A DNA stretch of 64,000 bases from Fibrobacter sp. UWB5 (GTDB lineage Bacteria > Fibrobacterota > Fibrobacteria > Fibrobacterales > Fibrobacteraceae): assembly GCF_002210295.1 (NCBI RefSeq), contig NZ_MWQH01000003.1, forward strand, positions 62,001 through 126,000, given 5' to 3'. The notes below the pieces were generated by a model. The model saw only the letters and a list, made by a program, of their open reading frames with translations. It had not been told where the DNA came from and made no database searches. Positions 55,303-59,822 of the stretch are shown one piece after another. Numbering within the stretch: the stretch's first letter is position 1; every line of letters begins with the position of its first letter. The position numbers were made by a program, and so were the translations under genes.

Positions 55303-55741
55303 ACCTTCAATATATGAAGATTTTAGCCTAAAAAGTGCAAAATTTCGCGAAAAACTCTTTAAAATGAGTGAGGGGGAGGTTTCCCCCTGGTTCGCACTAC
55401 GTTGCTCTCCACTCCCTCGCCTAGGGGCTTCGCCCCTAAAACCCCAATTGTCACACGGATTGGGAATCACTAACGTGATTCCTGTTATGATAACCCAAAA
55501 GAGATAAAAATGCCGTTAGGCATTTCGAATCAGTGTGACAGTCAAGTTTTCTTTTTCAGATCGAAAAAGTCTGTAGATCGCTTGTATTGTCAAAAAATTA
55601 AGGATTTTTATATTTTTGAGAACATTTTAAATTGTAAAATCTTTAAAAATATCAAATAAATATTGATTTTTGTATTGCTTTTGTCAAATTTTAAGTGTAT
55701 ATTTTGAGAAGAAATTTGAGAACATTTTCAAAAAGGGATGG
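55303..55741. promoter_or_regulatory. Divergent intergenic region between nfeD and pectate lyase
   Basis: No gene is seen here. It contains the hairpins AGGGGGA / TCCCCCT (55370-55387) and AGGGGC / GCCCCT (55422-55437), the third CACACGGATT/TAAC element (55452-55482), ATGCC GTTA GGCAT (55509-55522), and a very AT-rich stretch ahead of the lyase with two copies of TTTGAGAACATTTT exactly 100 bp apart (55615 and 55715). Confidence 0.7.
55452..55482. repeat. Copy 3 of the CACACGGATT/TAAC stem-loop family
   Basis: CACACGGATT (55452-55461), stem GGAATCAC / GTGATTCC (55463-55470 and 55475-55482), loop TAAC. Unlike the other two copies it has no T tract and is not next to a 3' gene end on the plus strand. 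Confidence 0.88.
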
Positions 55742-57868
55742 ATGAATATGGTTTCAACAGGTTCCAAAATGGTTTCTAGAGTGGCGCTCGGTGTGGCGCT
55801 TCTCGGATTTGCCGGGGCTTATGCCCAGGTGTCGATCAACAAGGCCGAAGGCTGGCTCGAATCGGCTTTTGCCGAATGGGCTTCCGATGGTTCGGACAGC
55901 TACAATGTTTACTATTCGGGCGCTGGCGCAAGCAACGTCAAGGTAGACGGTCAGCTCATTCGCAAGTACGGCTCCAAGTACCGTGTTGACGTGGTCGGCC
56001 TCAAGGCCGGTAGCTACACGCTCAAGGTGGCCTCTGTCAAGGGCGGCAAAGAAGGTGCTTCCACCACTTCGAAGTCCCTGACCGTTAAGGCCCATGATCG
56101 CGCGGGCTTCGCTTTTAGCAACGGCCATGTTCCGGGTGCTTACAAGACCGATGGTACGCTCAAGAGCGGCGCCGTGGTTCTCTATGTGACCGAATCGACC
56201 AAGAATACCATCAAGCTTGATGTGGTGACGAGCAGCAAGGGTGCTGTAACGGAATGCGTGGGCCTCCAGAATATCTTGACGGCATTCAAGAAGGGCTACG
56301 ATACGCGTCCGCTCGCCATTCGCTTGATTGGCAACGTGACCGACCCCGAAGTGACCGACAAGGGTGACATTCTGATTGACATGGGCAAAAAGGAAGGTGG
56401 CGCCATGACGATCGAAGGTATCGGTAACGACGCTACGGCAAACGGCTGGGGCATTCGTATCAAGAACGCTTTCGATGTTGAAATCCGCAACATCGGTGTT
56501 ATGAATGTCGATTCCGACGAAGGCGACAACATTGGCCTGCAGCAGGATAACCAGTACATTTGGGTGCACAACTGCGACTTCTTCTACGGCCATGCGGGTA
56601 GCGATAAGGACCAGGTCAAGGGCGATGGTGCCTTGGACTGCAAAAAGTCCACCTACGTGACCTTCAGCTACAACCATTTCTGGGATAACGGCAAGTCGAA
56701 CTTGCTCGGCCTTTCCGAAGGTACGACTGACGGTCTCTACATCACTTATCACCACAACTGGTACGACCATTCCGATAGCCGCCACCCGCGCGTGCGCTTC
56801 TACAGCGCCCATGTGTACAATAACTACTACGATGGCGTGGCCAAATACGGCGCTGGTTCTACGAAGGGCTCTTCCGTGTTTATGGAAGCGAACTACTTCC
56901 GTAATTGCAAGTACCCGATGATGACGTCTATGCAGGGAAGCGACGTGTATGCTGGCGGCACCACTCGCGATACCAAGAACAATCCGACATTCAGCAGCGA
57001 AGATGGCGGTACGATCAAGGCTTATAACAACCACATGGAAGGTTCTTACACGTTCATTCCGTATGGTGCAAGCAAGTATGTGCTCAAGGGCTCTGAAACG
57101 GCTGCTGGCTCCATCGATACCAAGGCCGACTTTGACGCCTACGTGGTTTCTAGCCGCAACGACAAGGTTCCGAATACGGTCAAGTCTTATGCCGGTGCGA
57201 ATACCTACAACAACTTTGATACCGACAATTCCGTGATGTACAGCTACACGGCGGATTCTCCGGCGCAGGCCATGGCGAATGTGCGTGCCTATGCGGGCCG
57301 CGTGCAGGGTGGCGATTTCAAGTGGGCGTTCGACAACTCGGTGGACGATGCCGCCTACGAAGTGAACCAGAAGTTGAAAGATGCCCTGATGGCTTACAAG
57401 GGAAGCAACGGCGAAGTTATGGAATATGCAAGCTCCAGTTCTGTGGCGCCGGCATCCAGCAGTTCCGTGGAATCCAGCTCGTCGGTGCAGTCTTCCAGCT
57501 CTGAGGCGAAGTCTTCAAGTTCCGAAGCCAAGTCCTCTAGCTCCGAAGAGGTTTCGTCTAGTTCCGAGGCAAAGTCCTCCAGCTCTCAGGAAGAAGTGGA
57601 TAGTTCTTCGAGCGAACAATCCCAGGCGATTGCCGTTAAGATGCAGGTTGCTTCTCCGATGCGCTACATTGCTAGCGAAAGCCGTCTTGAAATCAATGTG
57701 GATGTGCGCCGCCTGAACATTTTCGATGTGAATGGCCATGTCGTAAAGGTGTCGACCGAGGCGGTATCGCAGTCGAGTGTTGATTTGAGTAGCCTTAAGC
57801 CGGGAATTTACCTGGTTCGTCTAGTGGCGGGCGGCAAGGCCTACCAGCAGAAAATTGTGAAACGGTAA
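55742..57868 (+). CDS. Pectate lyase, PL1 family, multidomain
   Basis: About 708 residues. Signal peptide ending GAYA, FN3-like region (about 30-115), PL1 right-handed beta-helix (about 130-560) with the Ca-binding Asp in GDGALDCKKSTYVTFSYNHF and the catalytic Arg in SDSRHPRVRF (near 350), VYNNYYDGVAKYG; then a polyserine linker made of repeats like SSSSEAKSSSSEA, and a C-terminal sorting-type domain ending GIYLVRLVAGGKAYQQKIVK. Cleaves polygalacturonate, complementing the rhamnogalacturonan module at the other end. AAAAAGGG precedes ATG 55742 (a second ATG lies two codons on). Strong terminator follows. Confidence 0.95.
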   Translation: MNMVSTGSKMVSRVALGVALLGFAGAYAQVSINKAEGWLESAFAEWASDGSDSYNVYYSGAGASNVKVDGQLIRKYGSKYRVDVVGLKAGSYTLKVASVKGGKEGASTTSKSLTVKAHDRAGFAFSNGHVPGAYKTDGTLKSGAVVLYVTESTKNTIKLDVVTSSKGAVTECVGLQNILTAFKKGYDTRPLAIRLIGNVTDPEVTDKGDILIDMGKKEGGAMTIEGIGNDATANGWGIRIKNAFDVEIRNIGVMNVDSDEGDNIGLQQDNQYIWVHNCDFFYGHAGSDKDQVKGDGALDCKKSTYVTFSYNHFWDNGKSNLLGLSEGTTDGLYITYHHNWYDHSDSRHPRVRFYSAHVYNNYYDGVAKYGAGSTKGSSVFMEANYFRNCKYPMMTSMQGSDVYAGGTTRDTKNNPTFSSEDGGTIKAYNNHMEGSYTFIPYGASKYVLKGSETAAGSIDTKADFDAYVVSSRNDKVPNTVKSYAGANTYNNFDTDNSVMYSYTADSPAQAMANVRAYAGRVQGGDFKWAFDNSVDDAAYEVNQKLKDALMAYKGSNGEVMEYASSSSVAPASSSSVESSSSVQSSSSEAKSSSSEAKSSSSEEVSSSSEAKSSSSQEEVDSSSSEQSQAIAVKMQVASPMRYIASESRLEINVDVRRLNIFDVNGHVVKVSTEAVSQSSVDLSSLKPGIYLVRLVAGGKAYQQKIVKR

Positions 57869-57950: not shown

Positions 57951-57978
57951 CTCCCGGGCGTGCACGCCCGGGAGTTTT
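57951..57978 (+). terminator. Terminator of the pectate lyase gene
   Basis: Perfect 10-bp stem CTCCCGGGCG / CGCCCGGGAG with TGCA loop (57951-57974), then TTTT. Confidence 0.92.
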
Positions 57979-57987
57979 CAATTACTC

Positions 57988-58016
57988 TTGCCAAAAATCC
58001 CTACTTTTATTACCTT
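57988..58016 (+). promoter_or_regulatory. Candidate leuA promoter
   Basis: TTGCCA (57988-57993), 17-base spacer, TACCTT (58011-58016). Transcription would begin near 58022-58024, at or next to the start codon of the leader peptide, which has no ribosome binding site. Confidence 0.5.
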
Positions 58017-58023
58017 TCTGCAT

Positions 58024-58095
58024 ATGAACAAGATTCTGGATCTACGACTTATTAACCTACTAGGACATTGCGCTGGAGCGCAAGCCGGTTTTTAA
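58024..58095 (+). CDS. leuL: Leucine-rich leader peptide of leuA (probably leaderless)
   Basis: 23 codons beginning MNKILDLRLINLLG and ending CAGAQAGF. Five Leu (CTG, CTA, CTT, CTA, CTA) and two Ile lie in the first thirteen codons, including an adjacent CTA-CTA pair at 58057-58062. CTA is otherwise uncommon in this window. The last codons overlap a pause hairpin. It is followed by an intrinsic terminator and an alternative antiterminator, so it fits the leu leader of transcription attenuation. No Shine-Dalgarno is visible, and the inferred promoter would put transcription start at the ATG. Confidence 0.82.
   Translation: MNKILDLRLINLLGHCAGAQAGF
58068..58083 (+). promoter_or_regulatory. Pause hairpin of the leuA attenuator
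   Basis: TTGCGC / GCGCAA stem with TGGA loop inside the end of the leader-peptide gene. It sequesters the same bases that begin the antiterminator. Confidence 0.75.
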
Positions 58096-58157
58096 GCATA
58101 GGTTCAAGACGATTTTAGAGTTTTAACCCAAGGATTTAAACCATAAGGCCCGCTCCA
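58074..58157 (+). promoter_or_regulatory. Antiterminator of the leuA attenuator
   Basis: Three blocks can pair in register: TGGAGCG (58074-58080) with CGCTCCA (58151-58157), GCC (58084-58086) with GGC (58147-58149), GGTTT (58087-58091) with AAACC (58138-58142). This 15-bp structure excludes both the pause hairpin and the terminator. Confidence 0.75.
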
Positions 58158-58181
58158 ATAAGGACGCGGGCTTTCGTTTTT
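58148..58181 (+). terminator. Attenuator terminator upstream of leuA
   Basis: GCCCGCTCC (58148-58156) pairs with GGA-C-GCGGGC (58162-58171, one bulged C) around an AATAA loop, followed by TTTCGTTTTT. Confidence 0.88.
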
Positions 58182-58215
58182 GAGTCAAATTTCTATTTTT
58201 TAGACGAAAAATGAG

Positions 58216-58243
58216 CTTGCCGCCTTGTTGGACCGGCAAGGAG
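58216..58243 (+). promoter_or_regulatory. Stem-loop covering the leuA ribosome binding site
   Basis: CTTGCCG (58216-58222) and CGGCAAG (58234-58240) form a 7-bp stem whose 3' arm includes the first bases of the Shine-Dalgarno AAGGAG (58238-58243). It may add translational control downstream of the attenuator. Confidence 0.5.
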
Positions 58244-58250
58244 ATAAAAA

Positions 58251-59822
58251 ATGAGCGAAAATAAGAACACGATTGAAAGACAACCCTTCTTTTACGACGT
58301 CACGCTGCGTGACGGTAACCAGGCTCTTCCGAAGCCCTGGAACAATGCCCAGAAAAAGGACGTGTACCTGCAACTCTTGAAACTCGGCGTGCAGGGTGCC
58401 GAAGTTGGTTTCCCGGCTTCGTCCGAGATGGATTTCGAATCGTGTAAGGAACTTGCCCAGCTGACCGCCAAGATGGCTGAAGAAGGCGACGAAGTCGCCA
58501 AGCGCATCGTGGTCTCTGGCTTGGCCCGCTGCGTGGAAAGCGATATCCAGCGCTGCTGGGAAGCGGTGCAGTATGCTCCGCATCCGCGTATCCACACCTT
58601 CCTTGCCACAAGCCCGCTCTCTATGGAACATGTGCTGCACATGACTCCGGAACAGGTGAAGGAAAAGGCCGTTCATTGTGTGAAGTTTGCCAAGTCGCTC
58701 GTGGGTAGCAAGGGCGATGTGGAATTCAGTGCCGAACATTTCGGTGACTGCCTCGAAAACATGGATTTTGTGATTGACGTGCTGAAGGCCGTGGTCGAAG
58801 CCGGTGCGACGACCATCAACCTGCCGAATACGGTCGAACGTTATCGTCCGTTCCTGTACGTGAATCAAATCAAGCAGGTGTACGAAGCCCTGCCGAAGAA
58901 TATCACGATTTCAGTCCACTGCCACAACGACTTGGGTATGGCAACGGCTGCGACCGTCGAAAGTTTCTTCGTGGGTGCGACCCAGCTGGAAGTTGCCCTG
59001 AACGGTCTCGGTGAACGTTGCGGCAACACGAACTTCTACGAAGTCGCAGTCGCGCTGCATAACTCCGGCGTGAATACGGGCCTGCACATGGAACGCATTT
59101 ATGAAACGGCAATCTTGATTTCTCAGTGGTCCGGCATCAGCATTTACAGCCGCGCCCCGTTGATCGGTGCCGAAGCGATCGTGCACCGTAGCGGCATCCA
59201 CCAGGATGGCGCCTCTAAGACGAAGGACATGAAGAAGGGCGCATACCGCCCGATTGACTACTCGATTATCGGTCGTCACCAGAACGATTCGCTCAGCTTT
59301 ACGAGCCAGAGTGGCCGTACCGCCGTGTACGAAATCATCACGAAGTTCGGCTACAAGATGTCTCTTGCCGAAGCCGCCGAACTGCAGCCGATTCTGAAGG
59401 CTTGCAGCGAAAAAGAAGGTGAACTGTCTGCCGAACGCGTGCTGGATGTGTTCCGCGAACATTTCGTGAATGTGAACGGTCGCCTGATTTTCAACAACAT
59501 CGAAGTCGTGCCCGACGAAAACCGCTTTATCTTCCACTTCAAGAAGGATGGCGAATCTTTGGTGAAGTCCGTGACGGCCGAAGGTCCGATCGAGGCGGCC
59601 CTCATGCTCATGCGTGAAATCGGCATGCCGGTGGAACTCGTCAAATACCGTCAGCTCGTGGTGCCTGAAAAGGACAAGGTCTGGGCAGGCCGAGGCCTCA
59701 GTCGCATAGTGCTGAAGGCGAACAACGTCGAAGTCGAAGGCCGCGGTGTGTCGAGCGATACGCTCAAGGCAAACATGCGTGCCCTCTTCGGTGGCGTGAA
59801 CCTGCTGTATAAAAAGCAGTAG
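58251..59822 (+). CDS. leuA: 2-isopropylmalate synthase
   Basis: First committed enzyme of leucine synthesis. 523 residues: catalytic TIM barrel starting FYDVTLRDGNQALPKPWNNA, the metal-binding HCHNDLGMATAATVES, and GLGERCGNTNFYEVAV; a C-terminal regulatory domain (about 400-523). The LPKPWN context resembles the long LeuA2-type rather than the short form. AAGGAG at 58238 gives ATG 58251. Controlled by the leucine attenuator just upstream. No other leu gene is near. Confidence 0.95.
   Translation: MSENKNTIERQPFFYDVTLRDGNQALPKPWNNAQKKDVYLQLLKLGVQGAEVGFPASSEMDFESCKELAQLTAKMAEEGDEVAKRIVVSGLARCVESDIQRCWEAVQYAPHPRIHTFLATSPLSMEHVLHMTPEQVKEKAVHCVKFAKSLVGSKGDVEFSAEHFGDCLENMDFVIDVLKAVVEAGATTINLPNTVERYRPFLYVNQIKQVYEALPKNITISVHCHNDLGMATAATVESFFVGATQLEVALNGLGERCGNTNFYEVAVALHNSGVNTGLHMERIYETAILISQWSGISIYSRAPLIGAEAIVHRSGIHQDGASKTKDMKKGAYRPIDYSIIGRHQNDSLSFTSQSGRTAVYEIITKFGYKMSLAEAAELQPILKACSEKEGELSAERVLDVFREHFVNVNGRLIFNNIEVVPDENRFIFHFKKDGESLVKSVTAEGPIEAALMLMREIGMPVELVKYRQLVVPEKDKVWAGRGLSRIVLKANNVEVEGRGVSSDTLKANMRALFGGVNLLYKKQ

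Follow-up and report, generated by a model that had tools for sequence, protein, structure and literature searches.

Features upstream of leuA

The window analysed here is a stretch of 64,000 nucleotides from Fibrobacter sp. UWB5, in which leuA is preceded by a short leucine-rich reading frame, promoter-like hexamers and several hairpins. The next gene upstream (55670-57868) encodes a protein with a T9SS sorting domain and is followed at 57951-57978 by a perfect hairpin, CTCCCGGGCG-TGCA-CGCCCGGGAG, and then by TTTT, which is probably the terminator of that gene. The features between this hairpin and leuA, and leuA itself, are the following:

57988..57993, plus strand: -35 element TTGCCA, conserved as TTG(C/A)CA in the 60 homologues left after thinning, at about -36 from the leader ATG
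58011..58016, plus strand: -10 element TACCTT (TATATT consensus in relatives), 17 bp from the -35 element and 7 bp before the ATG
58024..58095, plus strand: leader peptide ORF MNKILDLRLINLLGHCAGAQAGF*, a Leu-run ORF at the homologous place in relatives, putatively leaderless
58042-58044 (CTA), 58048-58050 (CTT) and 58057-58062 (tandem CTA), plus strand: control codons of the leuA leader
58068..58083, plus strand: 1:2 (pause/protector) hairpin TTGCGC-TGGA-GCGCAA, -7.9 kcal/mol, in close relatives only
58074..58091, plus strand: region 2, antiterminator 5' arm, from the minimum free energy (MFE) fold and covariation with region 3
58138..58157, plus strand: region 3, antiterminator 3' arm, overlapping the terminator 5' arm, from fold and covariation
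58148..58171, plus strand: 3:4 intrinsic terminator hairpin, -17.9 kcal/mol, z -4.6, with its U-tract at 58172-58181
58216..58240, plus strand: second hairpin, kept throughout Fibrobacter, with a 3' arm that extends into the leuA Shine-Dalgarno sequence (AAGGAG, 58238-58243)
58251..59822, plus strand: leuA, 2-isopropylmalate synthase of LeuA2 type (NCBIfam NF042434, 542.6 bits, cut-off 500)

The 23-codon frame with five Leu codons, two Ile codons and a tandem CTA pair that a preliminary description had reported at 58024-58095 is indeed present there, and its Leu codons (CTG, CTA, CTT, CTA, CTA) and both Ile codons fall within codons 4-13. Some of the loci are duplicates from the same genome; statistics on leaders were computed on distinct sequences only. 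Leu accounts for 26% of codons in leaders versus 8.6% in window genes, and CTA makes up 37% of the Leu codons of 67 distinct leaders versus 2.1% in 38 window ORFs, leuA itself containing none. Rare control codons are also one of the features of the enterobacterial leu leader.

Homologous loci were gathered by LeuA, and the upstream stretch was read in the window, in about 60 loci (nearly all Fibrobacter) and in 40 further loci. A Leu-run ORF precedes leuA in the Fibrobacter loci whose sequence extends far enough upstream. Beyond the genus it recurs in 8 of the 10 other f1 genera (f1 being the family of Fibrobacter), in families f2 and f5, and in all f3 genomes carrying this LeuA; examples from relatives are MRKILNLLLLLSIATEARF, MKQIKNLLLILGNHC, MINQNILLGLLLYRN and MSKAHAQLLLLGLSG. 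Homologous leaders devoid of the frame or of its Leu codons had been named beforehand as evidence against the element, but of the 14 further genera of the class that were read, 12 have the Leu-rich leader ORF together with the antiterminator/terminator pair and a promoter lying 6-7 bp ahead of the ATG. The leader is absent before leuA in two f1 genera, at loci L105 (G083) and L108 (G086). No leader was found upstream of the more distant leuA genes (about 33% identity) of f8, f10 and f12, nor upstream of the leuA relatives in other phyla (L092-L094).

Promoter geometry and the start of the leader

Upstream of the leader, the window reads TTGCCA (57988), 17 nucleotides, TACCTT (58011), 7 nucleotides and ATG. 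After thinning to less than 85% identity, 60 sequences remain; in these, conservation falls on the -35 element (TTGCCA), the -10 element (TTTGTATATT) and the start-codon region, the spacer being near random with columns mostly near 0 bits. The two hexamers are 17 bp apart in almost all loci, and the -10 element precedes the ATG by 7 bp in 68 loci and by 6 bp in 17; counted as pairs, spacings of 17/7 and 17/6 occur in 68 and 14 of the tallied loci. A pyrimidine (C or T) occupies position -1 in 59 of the 60 thinned sequences and the A of the ATG is +1, a pyrimidine-purine step that is the usual signature of a transcription start. No Shine-Dalgarno sequence was found before the leader ATG at 58000-58023, nor any purine-rich column in the 60 thinned homologues, in contrast to leuA with its AAGGAG. 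PMC10783764 records a normal anti-Shine-Dalgarno sequence for the class Fibrobacteria.

Because the hexamers are conserved at a fixed distance from the ATG, the spacers drift and a pyrimidine occupies -1 in all but one thinned sequence, the leader is very probably translated leaderless from a 5'-terminal AUG. This reading had already been proposed from the missing Shine-Dalgarno sequence and a promoter candidate at the ATG, and the conserved spacing lends it comparative support. The in-frame TTG at 57988 was also considered as an upstream initiation codon and was rejected, since it is the -35 element itself. In two Fibrobacter MAGs from horse faeces (L074, L076), the leader and terminator are kept, the leader lies close behind the upstream gene and a promoter is not recognisable.

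The same attenuator could be served by a longer, leadered transcript starting upstream, in which case the TTGCCA/TATATT motif would not be the promoter used. We consider this improbable. Such a transcript would suit the two horse-faeces loci, whose leaders follow a gene closely without the motif, as well as a frame that stays open up to the TTG at 57988; but that TTG belongs to the -35 element, the hairpin and T-tract at 57951-57978 separate the preceding gene, and a longer transcript fits poorly with hexamers held at 17 bp and 6-7 bp spacing amid drifting spacers, with the pyrimidine at -1 and A at +1, and with the missing Shine-Dalgarno sequence.

Leader RNA structures and control of leuA

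The terminator at 58148-58171 and the 15-bp antiterminator, both described earlier from the window, hold up in their positions, their fold scores and their covariation. None of 200 shuffles matched the terminator (0/200), and TTTCGTTTTT stands directly 3' of it. Pairing of 58074-58091 with 58138-58157, 15 bp between the arms, is the MFE structure of 58074-58160 (-25.7 versus -14.8 +/- 2.7 for shuffles; z -4.1; 0/200), and the entire leader at 58024-58176 folds with a z of -4.05.

For the comparison among relatives, region 2 was located through a motif near the leader stop, and region 3 was not used in placing it. In 34 distinct arm pairs, 92.4% of the 2:3 cells are paired versus 84.4 +/- 1.3 when shuffled, and 26 cells have changed on both sides versus 12 +/- 2.8 expected (0/500 shuffles), with controls that keep relatedness and with motif-based placement of regions 2 and 3, a choice biased towards conserved arms. 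Sliding the register lowers pairing to 37-58%. In the compensated changes GGAG:CTCC becomes GAAG:CTTC, and GCG:CGC becomes GTG:CAC with a matching change in region 4; in an f2 locus outside the motif set (L114), the two arms have other sequences, GGCGGGTT:AACCCGCC, with pairing retained. The core 3:4 stem is paired at 6 of 6 positions in every tabulated leader, with 10 arm types showing compensation. The duplex between the leader end and the terminator arm is likewise stronger than in shuffles (mean z -1.9; window -3.0). In homologous leaders the centre of region 2 always lies between -24 and +10 nt relative to the last base of the leader stop, within the predicted footprint of a ribosome that has reached this codon.

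Of the three mutually exclusive structures claimed for the window, the two built on 2:3 and 3:4 pairing are thus borne out by fold and covariation, and the 1:2 hairpin of the window is shared with close relatives only. The alignment across Fibrobacter that had been proposed as a check gives the same picture: the Leu codons are conserved and 2:3 and 3:4 covary, but the third helix is limited to close relatives. The hairpin at 58068-58083 (TTGCGC/GCGCAA) has a modest z of -1.8 on its own. Its region 1, TTGCGC at 58068, belongs to the clade of the window; in most relatives the Leu codons themselves pair with region 2. Against codon-shuffled leaders, 1:2 pairing probability shows a small excess (0.79 versus 0.73), and fold energy gives a mean z of -0.5 (window -0.1; f3 and f5 leaders -1.3). 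The hairpin was therefore set aside as a conserved element, being clade-specific and with 1:2 pairing in no clear excess over the controls.

The hairpin at 58216-58240 has nearly invariant outer arms and little covariation, so covariation is not decisive for it. Its 3' arm, GGCAAGGAG, occurs before an ATG at 8 places in the genome versus 5 for the reversed pattern, and it is therefore not a general element. This hairpin might add a translational layer to leuA control. That it is the real switch, with control chiefly translational and loosely like that of the actinobacterial LEU element, seems to us very unlikely: the hairpin is conserved in Fibrobacter with a variable inner stem, and the LEU element works without an obvious terminator (PMC1262725), but at Fibrobacter leuA a U-tract intrinsic terminator and a covarying antiterminator are present, no pairing of the hairpin with the leader was noticed in passing, and the attenuator reaches beyond Fibrobacter, the genus to which the demonstrated occurrence of the hairpin is restricted. 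It is extremely unlikely that a fixed partial terminator merely sets the basal leuA level beside a small functional peptide unrelated to attenuation, though a pN/pS of 0.40 among 19-codon leaders also fits selection on the peptide: between genera the peptide outside the Leu run varies freely as the Leu codons, rare CTA use and region 2/3 complementarity persist, and the three-way complementarity would be left unexplained.

The anatomy, conservation, 2:3 and 3:4 covariation and promoter geometry observed here belong, we are confident, to a ribosome-mediated transcription attenuator of leuA with a very probably leaderless leader, for which a transcription start, ribosome stalling and a leucine response can be predicted. 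As judged from the promoter geometry, RNA polymerase would start at the leader ATG or a base or two from it, and a ribosome would initiate at the 5'-terminal AUG with no Shine-Dalgarno sequence. When leucyl-tRNA is ample, the ribosome would reach the leader stop and cover region 2, allowing 3:4 to form and transcription to end before leuA. When leucyl-tRNA is scarce, it would stall at the CTA/CTT run and leave region 2 free to pair with region 3, a pairing seen in fold and covariation; the terminator would then be blocked and leuA transcribed. Use of the rare CTA codon would probably make the response sharper. In the clade of the window, the local hairpin at 58068-58083 may sequester region 2 as long as no ribosome has stalled. 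A broader scheme, in which the Shine-Dalgarno hairpin gives leuA a second, translational check and leaderless attenuation is a standing mode across the class that arose independently of Actinobacteria, is speculative and on balance unlikely; if true, transcription and translation of leuA would both answer to leucine.

Relation to known attenuators and a second leader before trpB

Searches against Rfam leader families, T-box included, gave no relevant match to the leuA leader at the gathering threshold or E<=1. The element resembles the enterobacterial leu attenuator in its Leu-run leader with rare CTA codons and its exclusive antiterminator and terminator before leuA. It differs in its predicted start at the ATG and in lacking a Shine-Dalgarno sequence, which the enterobacterial leader possesses along with a 5' UTR. 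Actinobacteria, by comparison, make leaderless transcripts for the trp, leuA, ilvB and leuS leader peptides (PMC8079986; see also PMC4046766). The actinobacterial leuA LEU element has a leaderless Leu-run leader before leuA, as Fibrobacter very probably does, but has no obvious terminator and a predicted pseudoknot pairing Leu codons with the Shine-Dalgarno sequence (PMC1262725), and leuL1 of S. lividans, also leaderless, is missing a typical terminator (PMC8079986). Before Fibrobacter leuA, in contrast, lie an intrinsic terminator and an antiterminator. The ilvBNC attenuator of C. glutamicum, as Morbach et al. (2000) are cited in PMC4046766, has a leader peptide that is likewise translated without a ribosome-binding site, but that leader contains valine and serves another operon.

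With a Leu-run leader ORF, an intrinsic terminator and 2:3 pairing exclusive with 3:4, the Fibrobacter leuA element is, on largely supportive evidence, a classical terminator/antiterminator attenuator with, very probably, a leaderless start as in Actinobacteria. Leaderless leader peptides in attenuators are thus not new as such, having been known mainly from that phylum. Their occurrence in Fibrobacterota is apparently unreported: the preliminary description knew of no leu attenuation in the phylum, and we likewise found no report of attenuation or of such leader peptides in Fibrobacter or Fibrobacterota in the open-access literature. Leaderless leader-peptide attenuation appears to reach into Fibrobacterota, where four families provide evolutionary evidence for it.

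A genome scan with the pattern TTGNCA-N17-TANNNT-N7-ATG returned five places, one being the leuA leader and another a leader, MKMNSAIRFNRWWWGSTK, about 250 bp before trpB:

G000:C2:279665-279884 (L142 1501-1720; L186): trpB attenuator with WWW leader MKMNSAIRFNRWWWGSTK

The trpB leader recurs in about 50 Fibrobacter genomes, with promoter elements spaced as before the leuA leader. Its 1:2 hairpin, GGCTCTA/TAGAGTCC, lies over the stop codon, the antiterminator is GAGTCCG/CGGACTC and the terminator AAAGGCTTTCGG/CCGAAGGCCTTT. Judging from its sequence, this is a putative second leaderless attenuator in the same genome, and its WWW leader, shared promoter spacing and 1:2, 2:3 and 3:4 hairpins support the attenuator reading of leuA. 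Its closest counterpart is the actinobacterial trp attenuator, which likewise combines a leaderless leader (as for trpL1 of S. lividans, MFAHSTRNWWWTAHPAAH; PMC8079986), tandem control codons and an intrinsic terminator, but belongs to another phylum, has an unrelated peptide and arms, and lies before trpE instead of trpB. Outside Fibrobacter, no trp leader was found next to trpB, save weak WW candidates far upstream (G089, G080). No similar leader lies directly upstream of ilvB, hisG or pheA in this genome and a few relatives, where the first gene of the operon may differ.

Relaxing the pattern to TTG-N20-TANNNT-N7-ATG gave 53 places, about 2.4 times the 22 found with the pattern reversed as a control, and the matches include genuine gene starts (dnaX, fabF, an rsmA-like gene and several genes of the TIGR02147 family). 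Leaderless starts are therefore probably ordinary in this genome, and Fibrobacter probably has many leaderless mRNAs. The leuA and trpB leaders in one genome offer a system for asking how ribosomes loaded at a 5'-terminal AUG keep pace with RNA polymerase over ~150 nt, and a testable model for the control of leucine and tryptophan synthesis in a major rumen cellulose degrader. Several genomes carry extra partial copies of the trpB terminator part nearby.
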